A stretch of 64,000 nt of DNA from Xylona heveae TC161 (lineage: Eukaryota; Ascomycota; Xylonomycetes; Xylonales; Xylonaceae), in assembly GCF_001619985.1 (NCBI RefSeq), contig NW_017264201.1, forward strand, positions 992,001-1,056,000, given 5' to 3'. The notes under the pieces are model-generated. The model ran no database searches, was not told the DNA's origin, and saw only the letters and a list, made by a program, of their open reading frames with translations. Positions 5,199 through 54,332 of the stretch are shown here, one piece after another (position 1 is the first letter of the stretch; every line of letters starts with the position of its first letter). The position numbers and the translations under genes were made by a program.

Positions 5199-5228
5199 NN
5201 NNNNNNNNNNNNNNNNNNNNNNNNNNNN
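5199..5228. other. Assembly gap (N run)
   Basis: Thirty undetermined bases. Its true length may differ from the number of Ns. Confidence 0.95.
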
Positions 5229-9066: not shown

Positions 9067-10014
9067 TTACTCGACCTTGCTCTCGAAGTTCTCGCCGGCA
9101 ACAAGGTCGGGGATGTCATCGTCGTCGTCGGCCTCCTTCTTATCGCCCTCCTCGCCTTCCTTCTTCTGCAGAGACTGGTAGCTCTCGGCGAGCTTGCGGA
9201 GAGAGGCAAGGGAGTCGGGGCCGAGCTGGTTGAGGATACCGGGAACGAGCTCGGTGAGCTCCTTCTCCTCACCGTTGCCGTAGATGGCGAAGGTGTTGGC
9301 GGGGACGGAAGCGTGAACTGTAAAGGGAGACGGTCAGCCAATGTTGCAATTTCCCGACAATCTATGCTCCGCATCCAGACGCCGTCATATCCTCCTCCTC
9401 AACTGTGCAAGGAAGCTTCCCCTCATTTGAAAGAGAAAGCTGCCCTCCTTTCCACAATAACACCGTCCAATTGACCTTTCATCTAGAAGTGGATATGCGG
9501 GGTAGACGTACCCTTGGGGGCGGCGAAGTGGATGACGTTTCCATCCTCCTTGAACATGTTGACCTCCTCAATGGCCTGGATGGGCTGAACGTTGAGCTTC
9601 TTGAGCGAAGCTTGGAGCTTCTTGTCGTCGGTGCCAGAGTTCTTGTGGACCTTCTTTATCTTTCTTCTCGGGGTACCCTTGCCGCTATAGGATGACTAAT
9701 TGTCAGCATTCTGATCGTACGTGATGTGTATTCTTGTCGGCAAAGTTGAGTTGTTTATTCCAGTGACGGAGACAGCAGGTGATATGAAGTGAATAGAAGG
9801 TGTTTCAAAAAGGAGGAAGCGTACCCTACAGGGCAGAAGTTCAAAAGTTAGCTTCATCTTCTTCATCTAGATCCGACCTCTCCCCCAATGTTTGGCCCAG
9901 CCAAAAGTCTCCTCCAGCTGTCCTGCTCTGGCCCAGCCTTCAAATCCACTCAAATTGGCGTCACTCACCGATTCGCACCGACTGCTGCATTCTAGCAAGC
10001 TTTGCGTGATCCAT
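9067..10014 (-). CDS. egd1: Nascent polypeptide-associated complex subunit beta
   Basis: The model has four exons: 10014-9969, a single base at 9825, 9684-9512 and 9317-9067, giving 156 residues. It reads [15 protein letters not shown], then [20 protein letters not shown], the NAC domain with [20 protein letters not shown] and [20 protein letters not shown], and an acidic tail. It binds ribosomes with NAC alpha and shields nascent chains in the cytosol. Exon 1 ends ATC-G before GTGAGT, while the next long exon starts C-GGC-AAG, so one base is missing from the universally conserved RIGGKGT. A TGTAG-G-GTACGC site with a GCTAAC branch site 24 bases before it supplies exactly that G. The alternative donor GTGACG at 9964 would give RIGDGKGT, adding a residue. 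Conserved domain identity is certain; the one-base exon is a strong inference. Confidence 0.88.
9825..9825 (-). other. Predicted one-nucleotide exon of egd1
   Basis: On the minus strand the sequence is TGTAG, then G, then GTACGC. It is preceded by a perfect branch site (GCTAAC) and followed by a 140-base intron with its own branch site (GCTGAC) and TATAG acceptor. The single G restores the reading frame and the conserved Gly-Gly pair. Confidence 0.7.
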
Positions 10015-17613: not shown

Positions 17614-19332
17614 ACAACTCAGAAGGGAGATTTGAAACCTCTTTCTGATCGGGATACATTGTGGATATTTGCATATGGAGTTCTGGCATGGAATACTGCA
17701 ACGACACTTGATGGCTGCATAGGCGTGTTAGTGGGTTGTCTATACCCAATTTGCATTTCTTTTCATTAAAGTGCTGGCATCACTTTGCACGCATAGAATT
17801 GATGACATCAATCATGACTTTTTTATTTTATTCTTCTTTTTAAAAGTAGTATTTTGAACCAATTGAGATGTCACATTGACGGAAAAGACTACATTCTTTT
17901 TGCATACAATATAGCCGAAAAAGGCCAACATTTACAATTCGAGGACTGGCGGAGTTTCTCTCCAAGAATCCCAAGAAATGTCTCAATTGAATATCCCGCT
18001 CGTCCGATGGCGGTTATCGTCGAATTGAAAAGAAACGACATGTGGATGTGGGGCTGGCAAGGATCAACAAGTGACTACTCCGTATGAATGTAAAAACGAC
18101 AAATAACAAGGGAGCTTTTTCCTCATGGCTTGCAGAAACTTGCTCACCTGCAATTGAAAAAGCTTTGATGATTTCAAAACGCCACAATGGAAAACCCTCT
18201 GCTTATCCATAGGCCCATAGGCCCATAAGCCCATCAGCCCGGTGGTGCTTGGCGTCGCGCGTACGGAGTACTCCTAGGGGGTAGGGATGCAGTGTGCCCC
18301 GAAGTCGTGTCACCATTTGCTTTCCATCGTGGCCAGCAGTTATGCACCCTGCAGCAGATCCCCACCCTCGACCCAGATGAGCAAGTTTTCTGCATCATGA
18401 TTGATTCCCCTCGCTTTGTCACGTCTTCCGCCCTGGAAACCTTTCCGCACATGTCCTCTCTCCCTGCCCTTTGTCCCGCCATGAATACTAAGCTATTGGA
18501 AAAGAATTCCAGGCGTTAGCGTCCCTCGGGTCAAGACAAGAGGCTTTAGTCCTGACTGACTGAATGACTGACTCGGCTCCGGTTAAGGACACGCATCGGA
18601 CTAACACCCCGTGCCTTTTGCTAGTCAAGGTAGTTAGGTAGGTCTTGTCTAGCTTCCCACTGTAACTGTATACTCCGTACAGATAGATATGATGTGATGA
18701 AACAAGATGTGAGCGGAGATTTGCACACACACTACAACAACGCCCCAGACAAATGCTTGGCCGCACCGGCAATGATAATTAACTAATCCAGCTACACAGC
18801 ATACGTTAACAACCGCAGCATTGACTGACTCCTCTTGGCCCTGGATCCATAGGAGTGGGTGGGACCATATGCATGTGGATACCAAGTGCAATCATGTATG
18901 GAGTACGACACGGGAAAATAAAAAATCATGGCAGAGCTTTGACGGAAACATCATGCCCAGGAGCGTGGATCGTATCAATCCCTAGGTTTAGGCCAAGGCC
19001 AAGAGCCAATTCTTATATTATAGCCCTTGTCTCCCTAGTTCACCTTTCTTTTCCTTTTTGCTTTTCTCTCTCTATTTTTCCAAGTTCTTGATACCCTTTT
19101 GATGTTTCAGTAGCTCATCTCTAGCCACTTGGTGTTATTCACTTTACTTCACTTCATTCGATCTGTCACGCCAATTACCACGGCATTCAAAATCCCCCCA
19201 GAACTCATCAAGTCATCACAAACTGAGATACCTCTTCTCTTCTCTCATCCAACACCACCTTCTCACGTTCCCAACCCCATCCCCACAACACTTCACGCAA
19301 TCCAAACAATTCAAAAAATCCAAACGATCAAG
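17614..19332. other. Intergenic, promoter of the BIM1-like gene
   Basis: No supported gene. It carries CTTGCTCA at 18139-18146 and its reverse TGAGCAAG at 18378-18385, the same words as in the copper promoter to the left. Three TACTCCGTA motifs lie at 18076, 18262 (reverse) and 18671. A 77-codon frame at 17854-18087 has no recognisable family. Confidence 0.5.
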
Positions 19333-20205
19333 ATGCGTTCAACGTCCCTCACGTCCCTCTTCCTCCTCTCGCTCAGCAGCCTGAGCACCCTCGCCGCCGC
19401 CCACTTCAAGCTCGACTTCCCTGCCGCCCGCGGCTTCGATGAGGACAACCTCGTCAAGTTCCCCTGCGGCGGCCAGAACACCGTCAGCTCCAACCGCACC
19501 GCGTGGCCACTGAGCGGCGGCTCGATTCAGCTGACCATGGGCCACTCGCAGGCCAAAGTGCAGGTGCTGCTTGCAGTTGGCAACGATCCCAGCGACAACT
19601 TCAACGTCGTCTTGCGTCCGACGTTTCAAGAGATGGGGCTGGGAAACTTTTGCATGGGCGATGTCAATGTCCCTGCTGGGCTGAATATCAGCGAGGGCAC
19701 CAACGCTACCATCCAGGTCGTGACCAATGGTGATCCCAACGGTGGATTGTATAATGTATTCTCCCTTCTTCTCCTTTCCCCCCCGTCCAATCCCTTCTCT
19801 TCCTCGCCTTCCCTCTCTTTGATTCTCTCATTCCTATTTCTATTTCTTTTTTTTTTGTTATATAATTTTCTCGTCTTCCCAGGCCCTTACCACATCCAAC
19901 CAACCTAGTCGAAACAAACACTAACATTACCAACAAAACAGTGCGCCGACATCACATTCACCTCCACCGACAAGGCCTCTCCTTCGCAATGCCTCAACGG
20001 CACGGGCGTGACCTCGACGCCTCTGTCCGGCGCCAACATCAATGCCAACGGCTCCTCGTCCTCGTCCTCGGGGTCTACAACCAGCACCGGCACCGGCACC
20101 AGCACCAGCGCCACGGCCTCGCCTACTAATGCCGCTGGCCGCATCATGTGGGAGGGCTGGGGCATCATCGCAGGCGCGGCTGTCGGCGCGGCGGTCTTGC
20201 TTTAA
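19333..20205 (+). CDS. BIM1/X325-type LPMO-like copper-binding GPI protein
   Basis: Two exons, 19333-19755 and 19942-20205, give 228 residues. A signal peptide of about 20 residues ends in Ala-Ala-Ala, and cleavage before HFKLDFPAARGF would expose the N-terminal His that, with a second His (MGHSQAKV), forms the LPMO-like copper site of this family. Conserved Cys residues (FPCGGQN, NFCMGD, CADITF, SQCLNG) match the family. A Ser/Thr-rich stretch leads to a hydrophobic C-terminus typical of a GPI signal. Family members such as Cryptococcus Bim1 help copper uptake with Ctr transporters and do not cleave polysaccharide. The frame passes through the intron for a while, but the Cys-containing second exon fits the family much better. 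Confidence 0.88.
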
Positions 20206-22319: not shown

Positions 22320-23840
22320 CTACTCGTTGCGGTCGTCTCGCAGACCGCAGAGGTCCGTTCCGAAATGTAGGTCAATCCAGTAGCAGATGCGCCACCAAAA
22401 GCTCGCTCGAACCCAATCGAATTCGCCATTGTCCAATCTCGGGACGGCGGTGCCAATTACCTCGCCAGAAAACCATCCGAGAATCGGGATTTGTGACATC
22501 AAGCGCTGAGTGCGTGATGGCTGAGGCAAAAGAGCTTGCTCCGCTGGAAGAAGTACCGCGCGTCTGACGCCAGGAATGCGACGGGACATTTCACCGTTCG
22601 AAGTACTGGTCGCCAAAGCACCGCTCGAGAAAACGGGCTGGGATGTGCTGCGTGGAAGCTTTGTAGCTGCGGCGGGTACAGCGGGAGCGACTGGGAAGTC
22701 GGTGACAGTGCCAGAAGAGGCTGTCGAGCTAGAAGAGGGTGGTGGCGGTGCTTGTGATGGAAGAGAAAGGGTGTTGGTTGTGAATGACCTTGGAAGGCCA
22801 GAGATATTGGAATTGGAATTGGAATTCGATCGCTGTGCTGCCGCGCCAAATGACAAGTTTGTCCGAGAGTTGTTACGGTTAGGACGAGGAGTTCCGAGAA
22901 GAGTGTCTGGAGCATCTGCCTCTGTGACGGGTAAAGGAACGTCCTCTTTGGGACCGACACCGCGATAGGGTTCTGCATACACCCAGCATCCGCCGCAACT
23001 CTGAGGTGAAAAGTGACAAGCTCGGTCTGCCGCTTCTTGCGAGTCAAATGTGACCTTGATCCAGCTTTCTCCGCCAGCATATCTGCGTGCTCTCTTAGTC
23101 TCTTCCCGCGTCAGCGGTCGAGGAAGCACTGCTTGAATGTTCTGGAAGCTCGACTTATACTTGATGCGTTCGGGCGGAGGGAGACGTGGGTAGTCCTCGC
23201 AGATCATACCAGCTGAGATGCGTTCATAGAGCTCAATTGCACGCCACTGAGTGTCAGGAAAGTATCCGTAAAGTATAACTTCAGTTGGCTGTCGAGCTGC
23301 AGCTGGAATTGAAGAGGGTATCGAAGTCACTGCACTAGCAGACGTAGTCGTCGTACCATCAACCGCTGATGCGCTCAAAGCTACATCGGATTTGGTACGG
23401 GTTGAGGTCGAGAAGGATGTAGAAGGATGAGACTGTTGCTCGGAAGCTTGCTTTTGTTCCTTGTCCTTCTGTTGTTGAGCGGCCCATATCATTCCAAATT
23501 CCACAACGGTGGGATCTTCCTTTTTGGCCGGTGTGGCCGTCTTCGAGCGAGATTTGTTTCGGCGAAGAGGGGTGCCGAAAGGCCCCTTCTCTTCAGGAGG
23601 GCGACGTGGGTTTAGAGAGTCACTAAAGGTGATCAAGATATACCAAGTTAGTGATGAAAATAAAATGGCATCCTCAGTTAGGCTATCAAGGCCCGTTGTG
23701 TCGAACTGCCCATGTTTGTTGATTTTCACTTACTCCGCGTAGAGATAGCCCCATGGTAACCGATTCCCGTGGGAATCGAATGCTCGCTCCTCCTCTGGTA
23801 CTCCATGTACCTGCATGCGGGCCAGATTAGGGACCGACAT
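22320..23840 (-). CDS. Nup53/Nup35-like nucleoporin (MPPN RRM domain)
   Basis: The conservative model has exons 23840-23734 and 23622-22320 and 469 residues. The MPPN domain, an atypical RRM, covers TEVILYGYFPDTQWRAIELY through SWIKVTFDSQEAADRACHFS and WVYAEPYRG. A C-terminal FDWVRASFWWRICYWIDLHF segment resembles the membrane-binding amphipathic tail. Nup53 scaffolds the inner ring of the nuclear pore and binds Nup170/Nic96. The start is uncertain: the frame is open upstream of MSVPNLARM to a good acceptor at 23955 with a GCTAAC branch site, so the protein likely begins further upstream, possibly in the 25473-24290 frame. Confidence 0.75.
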
Positions 23841-24289
23841 TTTTACTTTCTTGGCCCCCCTGGCGACGTTGTCGTCGTTGTCGTTGTTGTCGAGAGCGTC
23901 CAGCGCTCTCTTCGGAGACAAGTGTGGGCGGTCTAAGGAAATTCCCCAGTCCGTCCTAGCGCAGAAAAATAATTCGGTTAGCTTCTTCCCACCTTCTGAT
24001 TGGTTCGCGAGATATCCCTGCGGCAACGACGTCCAACTACTCCAGAATCCATCGGCGACGAGCTCAAATGGCGAAGGCAAAAAAAGATCAAGAAATCGAG
24101 AGAAACAGGAAAGAGATAACCAAAAAAAAAAAAGGAGAAAAGAAAGAAACTAGGTAGGGAAACAATAAAAAGAGTCAGGTTTTTTTTTTTTGGTTGAGAG
24201 ATATCAAAAATTGTGAACGGAAGCAACGATGAAACAGTGAGAAAAGAAAAGGTGTTGAAAAAAAGGGAGGGAAATAAAAGACCACTTAC

Positions 24290-25473
24290 AGCCGGCACGA
24301 CTCGTCTCCGATCAGTTTGCTGAACAGTCGGGGCCAAAACTGTCTCAAATGCAACAGCTTCCGATTCTTGAAGGGACCCGGCTCCATCCCTTTGGCTGCT
24401 GCAATTGCGCGGAAGGCCCAGCCGCCAATGAGGTCTCCGTACTGGATCCAGCCAGCACGACGGAGGATCTCCGTGAAAGGGTTTGTCTTGTGCAAAAACC
24501 CTTTGTCGTGGTACAAAGCGTTGTCAGCAAAACGCCGGATCGCAACGCAGAATTCTCCTGCGTTGCTCTGGCACCAATCGATGAGGTGCCACATAAGTGA
24601 GTCGTCTGGGCTGAAGCTCCAGACTTGCCCACTGTATGCCCCCGCCTCCAATTCGTCGACCCGTTGCAGGTCGATCCGGAAAAGTCCAGACCGATAGCCC
24701 GGGCCAACGATGGCATTGGGGTCGTTTCCAGCTTGGAAGAAGAGCCCCATAAGGAGCTCAAACCTCCTTGGGTCCAAGTGAACCCAATGCTGGAACGAGG
24801 TCGCCACAGGATAAAACTGTGGTTCTATCCGCTCAGGTCTCTCAGGCAAGGGACCAAGCCTCATGCTTGAAGAGACCTTCACGGGAAGAAACACAGCCGG
24901 TGTCTGTTCCAGGAGTTTGACTCCTGGCAGCGTGCTGATGACGCTTTGCGTCACGACAGGGGTAATTTGCGGTTGACTTACCGCTTCCTGGAGGTCCTCC
25001 GTGACCACCTTGGCAGCCTTTTGAGACCTTCCGACATCAGTCTTTGGCCCTGGCTGTTCAGGCCCCTCTCCGCCAGCTGGACTTTGGGCGGGTTCGGGAT
25101 CCACAGGGAGGGAGACCGGAGCAGGGAGTGGCAATTCAACCACTCCCGTTCTTGCCTCACGACGAGAGTGGATTTTCCTTGCCGCAAGGACCTCCGGCGA
25201 TGCCCGAATCGCCGGGTCCTCGAGCAAGTCATCCCCTCCATCTTGCGTTTGCTCCTCCTCCCTTCGACCCTGTTGTCCCCCTCCCCGCTTTCTAGGTCCA
25301 CTGGCGGTTATTTCCCCCTGAGCAGAATCCTCGGGAGAGGCGGCCCTCATCTGCTGGGGGTTGTCCGACTCGGGCGTCGGACCGTCGAACCGGACCTTTT
25401 TAAAGTCCGGTCGACCACTTCTGGTGACCATCCTGTTGTTTTCATCAGTTTTCCGTCTTGCGGAGTGTGGCAT
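24290..25473 (-). CDS. Unknown protein region, possibly first exon of the Nup53-like gene
   Basis: An open frame of about 394 residues that I do not recognise. The first half is charged and Pro/Gln-rich (RSGRPDFKKVRFDGPTPESD is near the start); the second half is ordered, with FELLMGLFFQAGND, VWSFSPDDSLMWHLIDWCQS and IGGWAFRAIAAAKG. It is more GC-rich than its surroundings. The frame ends at CTG-TAA where the stop overlaps a perfect GTAAGT donor, and that phase matches the acceptor at 23955 that leads into the Nup53 frame. So it is either an independent gene ending at 24286 or, as I think slightly more likely, the 5' exon of one larger gene. Confidence 0.5.
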
Positions 25474-33617: not shown

Positions 33618-35800
33618 CTAGAACATGGTACCAAAAGAGCCGTCTGTTGGAATGGCCTTTCGGGGACTACCCTCGCCGTCTGTAGCGGGTTTGCGATGCC
33701 TGGTGTATAAAGTCAGTTTCCTCACCAGTCTTGAATTGTCATATGTTTGTTCACGGCGCAAACGAACCTAAATGTAAACCCAACAAACAAGCCCTTATTC
33801 ATCTTCTCGTCGCGGTCCGCCAGGCTTTCTATTGCCGCCTGCTTGTCATGCACCTCCTTGTATTTCGCCATGTCGGCCTCGCTGCTAAAGTCGTCGAAAT
33901 AGCCCGCATCAGTCTCGGAATCGAGCTCTGGCACAAACGGCGCACGTTGCGCTCGCAGTCTGTTCCAGTCGACTTCTGAAAAGTATGCATGCGAATGAAT
34001 CTCCTGGATACCTCGGAAACGAGAGGTTTTGGAGGCGACAAGCCGCGTGATGAGATCCCAGGTTCGGGGACTGAGAAAGTACGTAGGATCTTCGTACTCG
34101 GGTTTCCTGAGCACTTTGCGCCAGTGCTTGAGATTCTGCCACGTCTCGTCCACGGTAGCACCGGCAAAGGGAGGGTAGCCGGCAAGCGCCTCAAAGAGCA
34201 TACATCCCAGACTCCAATAATCCACGGTGAAATCATACTCCTCGCCTTTGAGCACCTCGGGAGCCATATAGTCGGGGGAACCGACAATGGATTTGGCATA
34301 ATTGACATCGCGCTCGCGGAGCGATCGGTAGCCTTCTCGTCGCTCGGCCGCGGAACGTTCCTCCATCGGTCTGCCAAAAGGCGCAGATAGGTTGCCCACT
34401 TCCTCGAGCTTAATGCGCATAGATTCAATCTTGACGGGGCTCAACATGCCCGCCGACAGACCAAAATCTGTGAGCTTGACATGCCCAGTGGAGTCGATAA
34501 GGAAGTTCTCGGGTTTGAGGTCGCGATGAATGTAGCCCAGTTGGTGCAGTGCGTCCACGCATGAGAACATTTCAGCAGTGTAGAAACGAGCATGACGGTT
34601 GTGAAGGACGCCAGTGTTGTTGAGAAGGGTACGGAAATCGCCTCCAGGCACGTATTCCTAGATGCTAATATTAGCATAAAACGTTCACCTGGGCCGGTAG
34701 GGGGCATTGCTTACCATAGCCAAGTAGATGCTCTTTTCGTCTTGAAAAGCGTAGAGGAGCTTTACGAGCCAGTCACTCTTGGCTGCGGTCAAGATATCTC
34801 GTTCCGTCAACACATGGCGAATTTCATCTAATTTAAAAAGCAGCTTTTTGCTCATCACTTTCAACGCGCACACTTCCTTGGTATCCTTCTTCTGCGCCAA
34901 AAAGACCTGACCGTATCCACCTTGACCGACCTGTGTAAGGATCTGGAAGTCGCCATGCCGAAGTCTAGTGCGCCGCTTCCGCAGAAAAGCTCTTTCTCTG
35001 CCAAGATATTTGTGTAACGCAGGTTCGTACTCTCCCGATGGAGTCGCCGGAGGGGCCGGATATTGTGCTTTAAATTGACCAAGTCGGTTCTGACGTGTGT
35101 GGACGTAGCTAAGGAGATCAAAGTAATAATCAAGGAAATCTGGTTTTTTACATGTTAGGGACGCTTCAAATTAGGTTAATTAGATCAATTAAAACTCACA
35201 TAACTGCGCAACGTTTGCCAAACGTTTCACAGAAGGTTTGTTCAGTTTCTCCAAGTCTTCCATAGAAATGCCACGCTGCGTCCCAAACCCTTTCCGAATA
35301 CTAGGGTCCGATTGCTCTCGAGGATGGTATAATTCCTGACGAGTAGCTGCGGCCTGACTCATTGCATAATTGTTATCCTTCCCTGACCTTGCTGTCTGAG
35401 GGGCGTTCTCCTTGTTCGATTTACGCGTCGGGCTATTTGGTGCCAGCTGGTAATCTCTCTGCAAAATGCTGTTCTCTCCGGCTCCATAGCCATTCTGTGG
35501 AACCGGAATGGCTGATTTCCCGGGCGAGCCTGGACGCACCAGCTTCGTTGGGCTTGACGGGGCACTGGGCATGAGCTTAAGCGCGCTGTCGAAGACGTGA
35601 GGCAGATCGTGAGCGCCGGGGGGCAGTGTGCTCTTGCTGGGACTCCCCTGCGGAGTCTGGGTCGGTGAAGTAAAGCCATGTGTCGGCGTATGTGGTCGAT
35701 CATACAACTGATTTCCGGAACGTGTATGAAGTAGAGGCGGAGGGGTTGGGAGGGCGAGATTGGGATTCAAGCCCAGTGGGGGCGGGGCATTGGCGGCCAT
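33618..35800 (-). CDS. sidB: NDR-family Ser/Thr kinase Dbf2/SidB
   Basis: Four exons, 35800-35200, 35139-34715, 34657-33768 and 33699-33618, give 665 residues. A Pro/Ser-rich N-terminus precedes the Mob-binding region (YFLDYYFDLLSYVHTRQNRL). The kinase domain shows GQGGYGQVF, the catalytic Lys in CALKVM, HRDLKPEN, DFGLS, an NDR-type insertion before the activation loop, SIVGSPDYMAPEVL, and the C-terminal extension with FVGFTFRHRKP. In the septation initiation/mitotic exit network this kinase with its Mob partner triggers cytokinesis and septum formation, and in Aspergillus conidiation. The start is the first ATG of the frame; an upstream in-frame TTG was ignored. The name follows the Aspergillus ortholog by family resemblance. 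Confidence 0.92.
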
Positions 35801-36999
35801 GATGACCTCGTCTTTAGGATGCTCCGGTCGACACGCCAACTCGGTCTCCAATCGTGTATAATATCAATCGTCAGTCGCTGTGATAGCAGGGATCGACGCG
35901 AAAACTCAAGAAAGATTGACAAGGCGAGGACTGATATTTGAAGAGTCGCCGAGTCTGTGGTATTGTTTAGAAGGATGGACCAAGCGCGGGTGGATGCAGG
36001 TACTGTGCAGGACTAGGACCTGGCCTTGCTCTTGGGGGATTTAATTTTAGTCTTGTGCGGCTGTGGGAGATGATCTGCGGGATCGGGATGCAGGTGGAGA
36101 CGTGAGATTTGAGACTTGTTGGCCTTGGATCGAAGCCAGCGGGGGTCCCATGGGATGGTGTGCATGTACCATGTCGCAGTCACTAATGGCCAGTAGTCAA
36201 CCATTAAGTCACTCTGAGAACACGTCGCCAGGGATTTCGTTGCCACAGCAACACAACAAACCCCACCACCAGACGACACGAGCATCCACATTTCTCCCCT
36301 TTTCTTTGACAACCCAAGCTGATCGTATCATACTAACGCAACTCATCTAGCCTCCCCGAGCGATGCCAAATGAGCCATCTACTTGGAGTAAGCTGACGAC
36401 ACAAAACAAGGTAATCCATTCCAGGCCAACTGTCGTCTGTGTAGCATGATTCGTCCGTGGGCATTCTCGTCTAAAATGATCGTCATCAGGGATGTATAAC
36501 GACTCAGGCTTCAGGTCACAGATCTCATAGTTACCCAAAGTAAGATTACTCATCTATCGCCAGAAAGTCCATCAGACAGAACGGAAACGTTTGAATGGCA
36601 ACTATGCAGATGCAGCGATAGAGAATAATATCGTATATCAAAGATGGAATCTTTCCGTAAGACAAAAATTCAAACGCGGAGATATCGATGCATGTATGAA
36701 ACAAAGGAAACGTCATATCAAGTGTGCTGCCTCAATTTGTAGGGGAATCGGACATATATTATTCAATGCATTTTCTTAATAGCATCCTCAGCCTTGTCCA
36801 AATTGCCTCGGCTTCACGATGATTCGGTGTGAACGCGTCGCGCGTATAGTAGAACGCGCTGGTGTGATCGTATTGCCACTGGCCATTCTGAGCATCATGT
36901 TCCTTCAAAGCCAATGTCTTCAAAGCAGCAAATGCTCATGTTACAGACGTGAAAAATATCTACTATTATACCGGCCAGTAGGGCCTTAGACTGGACGGA
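35801..36999. other. Divergent intergenic between kinase and rec8
   Basis: 1.2 kb with no complete gene. A coding-like fragment lies on the minus strand at about 36770-36938 and is listed separately. A 68-codon frame at 36347-36553 has no recognisable family. Confidence 0.5.
36770..36938 (-). other. Coding-like fragment, unassigned
   Basis: Read on the minus strand, about 52 codons give ordered protein-like sequence including EHDAQNGQWQYDHTSAFYYT and RDAFTPNHREAEAIW, up to a stop codon. There is no start codon; an AG acceptor-like site lies at its 5' side. It could be the last exon of a small gene overlapping the rec8 leader, or a relic. I do not recognise a family. Confidence 0.35.
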
Positions 37000-54261: not shown

Positions 54262-54332
54262 GCGTTGTTGGTTTAATGGTAAAATTCGTCGTTGCCATCG
54301 ACGAGCTCCGGGTTCGATTCCCGGACGACGCA
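54262..54332 (+). tRNA. tRNA-Gly (anticodon GCC)
   Basis: Seventy-one bases fold as a cloverleaf: acceptor GCGTTGT with ACGACGC and discriminator A; anticodon arm CGTCG-TTGCCAT-CGACG with anticodon GCC; T arm CCGGG-TTCGATT-CCCGG containing the B box. There is no intron. A long T run begins four bases after the 3' end and serves as the Pol III terminator. Confidence 0.95.

Follow-up and report, generated by a model that had tools for sequence, protein, structure and literature searches.

A single G at position 9825 is very probably a constitutive one-nucleotide coding exon of a NAC-beta gene, predicted here on computational grounds to lie between two ordinary U2-type introns. It was identified within a window of 64 kb (the whole stretch of DNA that was analysed), and its inclusion restores a reading frame that is otherwise lost within a conserved motif. 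One-base exons are a very rare gene structure and are easily missed by automatic annotation.

Gene architecture and reading frame around position 9825

The NAC-beta gene lies on the minus strand (10014-9067) and begins with an ATG at 10014, as found both by direct reading and by our script (Table 1). Exon 1 codes for 15 residues and contributes one base to the codon that follows. It is separated from exon 3 by an interval of 284 nt, which extends from the GTGAGT starting at 9968 to the acceptor G of CTATAG at 9685. Joining exon 1 straight to the exon that starts with C-GGC-AAG leads to the loss of the frame and a stop after 24 codons. Within the interval, however, TGTAG-G-GTACGC places an acceptor (its G at 9826) and a donor (its G at 9824) on either side of the single G at 9825, and the inclusion of this base yields the full NAC-beta protein of 156 amino acids with the motif RIGGKGT. 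A script scan of the interval revealed no further AG-N-GT and just 2 matches to the branch-site pattern YTRAY, one for each acceptor, 23 and 19 nt upstream. The base at 9825 thus shows the sequence properties of a spliceosomal single-nucleotide exon: an AG on its 5' side and a GT on its 3' side, the usual donor, branch site and acceptor in both flanking introns, with those of intron 2 being marginal, and no other good canonical junction that keeps the frame without it.

Much of this anatomy had been proposed in an earlier note on this DNA, and it holds up on re-examination. The note had described an exon ending in ATC-G before GTGAGT and a next exon starting with C-GGC-AAG, which are read at 9969/9968 and 9684, respectively, as well as a shift of one base upon direct joining. 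It had further described an acceptor and a donor with a single G between them, downstream of GCTAAC, dividing the interval into introns of about 143 and 140 bases with a branch site each; the lengths and branch points are those given in Table 1.

Table 1. Predicted features of the NAC-beta gene, in order of transcription.
Feature	Position	Strand	Description
Coding exon 1	9969..10014	-	46 nt; phase 1, last bases ATC-G; N-terminal part aligns with BTF3
Intron 1	9826..9968	-	143 nt; GTGAGT...AGCTAAC (branch A 9848)...TGTAG
Predicted one-nucleotide exon, G	9825..9825	-	Middle base of glycine codon GGC
Intron 2	9685..9824	-	140 nt; GTACGC...TGCTGAC (branch A 9703)...CTATAG
Coding exon 3	9512..9684	-	173 nt; starts C-GGC-AAG
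Intron 3	9318..9511	-	194 nt; GTACGT...GGCTGAC...TTTACAG
Coding exon 4 including stop codon	9067..9317	-	Pfam NAC domain in joined protein

The identity of the encoded protein is well supported. Residues 1-152 align with BTF3 of solved structures (E 5e-47), which we take to be the human protein, and the RIGGKGT motif, predicted in the earlier note to emerge once 9825 is included and called conserved from yeast to man there, is present in all 4 displayed BTF3 alignments that cover it (7 sequences were matched overall). The Pfam NAC domain (PF01849) spans residues 36-92 of the joined protein (E 3.3e-24), and this domain together with the conserved N-terminal region identifies the protein as a NAC beta subunit (BTF3/EGD1), NAC being the nascent polypeptide-associated complex, a chaperone bound to the ribosome. 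Searches of viral and prokaryotic contig collections with the whole protein, and of the viral collection with a 108-residue piece, found no relative, an outcome that given the content of these collections has no bearing on the conservation of the exon. Soon after RIGGKGT, the predicted protein contains RRKIKK. For yeast beta-NAC, the available part of a published study describes a conserved RRK-(X)2-KK near the N-terminus that is needed for ribosome binding (PMC4664479). An extra residue or a frameshift next to RRKIKK would presumably not be neutral.

Splice-site strength and alternative explanations

Splice sites were scored with models derived from the window itself. Our own homology-free gene finder script predicted 14 genes with 21 introns in the 64 kb, 18 of these introns being located outside the NAC-beta gene. 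The four that exceed 160 nt (222, 300, 325, and 334 nt) were dropped, and the donor, branch, and acceptor models were trained on the remaining 14 script-predicted introns, leaving the NAC-beta gene out. The donors at 9968 and 9824 score 6.07 and 4.10 (4.096), respectively, compared to -1.02 for the GT at 9964 and a training range of 3.9-8.0, while acceptor plus branch reach 11.05 before 9825 and 7.90 before 9684 (training range 7.8-13.2). All four sites of the one-base exon model are therefore inside the training range, with donor 9824 and acceptor 9684 barely above the lowest values. Generic consensus models rank the best three donors of the interval in the same way (9968, 9824, 9720) and place 9964 far lower.

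The window holds 375 AGNGT sites, counting both strands, and only the one at 9825 combines a donor score of at least 3.9 with an acceptor plus branch score of at least 7.8 (0 of the other 374); looser cut-offs of 2.0 and 6.0 are passed by 5 of the 375. Cut-offs of 4.1 and 11.0 yield a count of zero, 9825 included, since its donor scores 4.096, whereas the exact values of the site yield a count of one. The resulting density of 0.0022 per 284 nt is contributed by 9825 itself, since no other site passes. Furthermore, the interval was subjected to 5000 dinucleotide shuffles, counting sites no closer than 40 nt to either end. Any AGNGT was found in 1548 shuffles and AGGGT in 710, whereas an AGNGT reaching the training minimum at both ends was found in 2, and one passing the loosest cut-off in 28. 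The bare pentamer is thus common, but its combination with a good acceptor, branch site, and donor is uncommon. Moreover, the site falls where exactly one base is missing, and this base yields a glycine.

The gene finder selected the arrangement of 143 + 1 + 140 nt unprompted. With 10 further settings, employing either training without the NAC-beta gene or generic splice models, the gene was found in 5 cases, all of which include 9825, and not in the other 5; among the former, one setting adds false upstream introns and two start the coding sequence at 9990 instead of 10014. A full-model score, with its coding part trained on a set including the NAC-beta gene and its splice part on one without it, puts the one-base exon first with 67.1, ahead of a donor at 9964 (58.5), a TG-AG intron (51.1), and skipping (-24.5). 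Alternative structures were also enumerated systematically. Allowing introns of at least 35 nt with AG acceptors and GT or GC donors, 30 single-intron models (12 GT, 18 GC) keep the frame free of stops; none of them has two strong sites and none retains RIGGKGT, and both sites reach the training minimum in none of the 12 GT models. The best-scoring single-intron model, with a donor at 9982 (2.48), loses QSVRIG. Among 37 two-intron models (all scores at least 0, middle exon of at most 90 nt), the top rank goes to the one-base exon, which is also the sole model whose four sites all reach about the training minimum. The runner-up, with a 58-nt exon at 9825-9768, has a sum of 26.1 compared to 29.1, a second donor of only 1.0, and a broken RIGGKGT. 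Therefore, the one-nucleotide exon suggested in the earlier note is, by these computational measures, the only frame-keeping model examined that has four in-range splice sites as well as RIGGKGT.

It should be noted that the prior probability of a one-base exon is very low. An assembly or sequencing error is the most serious alternative, as a G dropped from a GGG run would create exactly the observed frame problem: the true border would be ATCGG/GTGAGT, followed by one ordinary phase-2 intron of 284 nt, and TGTAG-G-GTACGC would be coincidental. A run of 30 N at 5199-5228 is an assembly gap and marks the window as part of a draft assembly, and the length of 284 nt is no obstacle, since long introns occur in the window. 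However, such a coincidence would have to match what none of the 374 other AGNGT sites and only 2 of 5000 shuffles achieve. Two long conserved-domain ORFs, one with tRNA synthetase domains (625 codons) and one with ferric reductase domains (743 codons), are unbroken, which represents a small check rather than an error rate. On balance, we consider an error at this border improbable. A single intron from the in-frame donor GTGACG at 9964 to the acceptor at 9685 would likewise keep the frame with GT-AG sites, resulting in RIGDGKGT with an extra Asp. Yet the donor score is far below the training range, the full-model score is lower by 8.6, and the added residue lies inside a motif that is unbroken in the displayed BTF3 alignments, which makes this junction very improbable. 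The Pfam NAC score is uninformative in this respect, because the model stops short of RIGGKGT and the RIGDGKGT and RIGGKGT proteins score alike.

The same mRNA and RIGGKGT protein could be obtained without a micro-exon from a non-canonical single intron, either GT-TA (9968-9686) or TG-AG (9967-9685). We regard this as highly unlikely, as it demands a non-canonical end although canonical sites yield an identical mRNA, and it leaves the well-placed AGCTAAC-TGTAG-G-GTACGC unexplained. Finally, nested or ratcheting introns that keep no exon base, i.e., a stwintron or a zero-base recursive splice site, have to be weighed. Stwintrons are known from Aspergillus and further Pezizomycotina and, according to the available part of the report, resemble the predicted NAC-beta arrangement in that two U2 introns are removed by consecutive reactions at one apparent intron position (PMC5639578). 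In a stwintron, however, a splice element of one intron is broken up by the other, with no base left between them, whereas the donor, branch site, and acceptor of both NAC-beta introns are uninterrupted in the pre-mRNA and one base is kept. A zero-base recursive site is a misfit as well, since the sequence is AG-G-GT rather than AG directly before GT and the frame needs one base to be retained. This renders both arrangements extremely unlikely. The earlier note's suggestion of a relic of recursive splicing thus fails with regard to a zero-base site, while the successive removal of two introns that it implied agrees with the likely route.

Predicted splicing route, origin, and precedents

Each of the introns flanking the predicted one-base exon has its own donor, branch site, and acceptor and would be recognised by intron definition, a mode described for Pezizomycotina in the available part of the stwintron work (PMC5639578). 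As these elements are complete and separate, neither intron needs the prior removal of the other, and the two are most likely removed successively, in either order. If intron 1 left first, the G would be joined to the end of exon 1 to form GG/GTACGC; if intron 2 left first, TGTAG/GCGGC would represent an ordinary acceptor. The mRNA would then read ATC-GGC-GGC-AAG, with a single glycine codon drawn from three exons. The sequence itself shows the anatomy, the frame's need for one base, and the uniqueness and strength of the sites, whereas the splicing of 9825 into the mRNA, its constitutive use, and the order of intron removal are inferences. Guo and Liu similarly suggested that introns flanking a single base leave one after another (PMC4674806, as far as its available text goes).

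With respect to its origin, the exon likely arose through the loss of a G at a former phase-2 exon border, after which a cryptic AG-G-GT would have rescued the frame. Indeed, ATC-G-GTGAGT lacks just one G to be a phase-2 border, which fits the origin proposed for CYP621A of Fusarium, where the loss of an exon-border base and rescue by a cryptic AGGGT are put forward in the accessible text (PMC12940212). Since skipping 9825 would result in a frameshift and an early stop, a role in quality control or regulation is possible. We consider it unlikely, nevertheless, that a whole fungal class shares the one-base exon and that it acts as a splicing checkpoint, with the balance of inclusion and skipping setting the amount of NAC-beta via mRNA decay. 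As RNA, the interval does not fold more strongly than its shuffles do (z +1.54; 97 of 100 are at least as well folded), and thus no looping structure is proposed. No match was seen among introns 1, 2, and 3, and only three matches of 12-13 bases were found elsewhere in the window; therefore, no recent duplication is seen.

According to the portions of the literature available, one-base spliceosomal exons have been described in APC11 (PMC4674806), in APC11 and VPS55 of land plants (PMC8831610), and in CYP621A of Fusarium, which its authors presented in February 2026 as the first one-nucleotide exon in a fungal gene (PMC12940212). The latter is strikingly similar to the NAC-beta case: both have an AG-G-GT in which the G supplies the second position of a glycine codon, this codon belongs to a conserved motif, and the G is essential for the frame. 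CYP621A is, however, a different and unrelated gene, its intervening stretch measures 139 nt in F. graminearum compared to 284 nt in NAC-beta, and its description draws on a comparison of 20 orthologues and on 18 sequence reads, whereas the NAC-beta exon is predicted here from the sequence of one genome. APC11 and VPS55 share with NAC-beta a one-base exon between two introns of a conserved gene that was missed by annotation. They differ in that the plant exons have been shown by cDNA, base substitution, RNA-seq, and RT-PCR, while that of NAC-beta is a prediction (PMC4674806, PMC8831610); moreover, the base is an A in Arabidopsis APC11 (PMC4674806) and a G in NAC-beta. In a fungal mitochondrial rnl gene, one base likewise lies between two introns, but these are group II introns and not spliceosomal (PMC12308204, in its available part). 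Among the matches listed from the open-licence literature, there was no prior report of a one-base exon in NAC-beta.

If the prediction is correct, this would be a second fungal one-base exon. Its location in a housekeeping gene unrelated to CYP621A, with AG-G-GT once more within a conserved glycine codon, would be a sign that exons of this kind have arisen repeatedly in fungi and are overlooked by annotation. Furthermore, it would provide a compact natural substrate for studying the minimum exon size under intron definition and the order in which flanking introns are removed.

Intron lengths and further features of the window

The majority of predicted introns in the window (12 of 21) measure 50-64 nt, and the 143 and 140 nt of NAC-beta introns 1 and 2 are long by comparison. 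The gene content and this intron style suggest that the DNA is fungal. As there are also introns of 194 nt and, probably, of 334 nt, length by itself is no evidence for a split interval. The predicted 334-nt intron (23956-24289, minus strand) contains runs of T and A as well as a good branch site and acceptor, and is located in a predicted gene (22320-25473) with a main ORF lacking a Pfam match; it is an indication that this genome has long introns. The 300-nt intron that the finder called at 35230-34931, within a predicted protein kinase gene (33725-35863), looks miscalled. By eye, a 60-nt intron (35199-35140, minus strand; GTGAGT...CCAG) would instead join a reading of QL-YFLDYYFDLL, a stretch that is presumably conserved in such protein kinases.

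Ten further stretches of the window were searched against Pfam, 7 of which match a family at 1e-5 and 3 of which do not. Rfam, at its gathering threshold, and ARAGORN agree on a tRNA-Gly (anticodon gcc) at 54262-54332 (plus strand) and found nothing besides it. In addition, an ORF at 19114-19905 (plus strand) encodes a BIM1-like copper acquisition domain (PF20238, E 8.8e-31).
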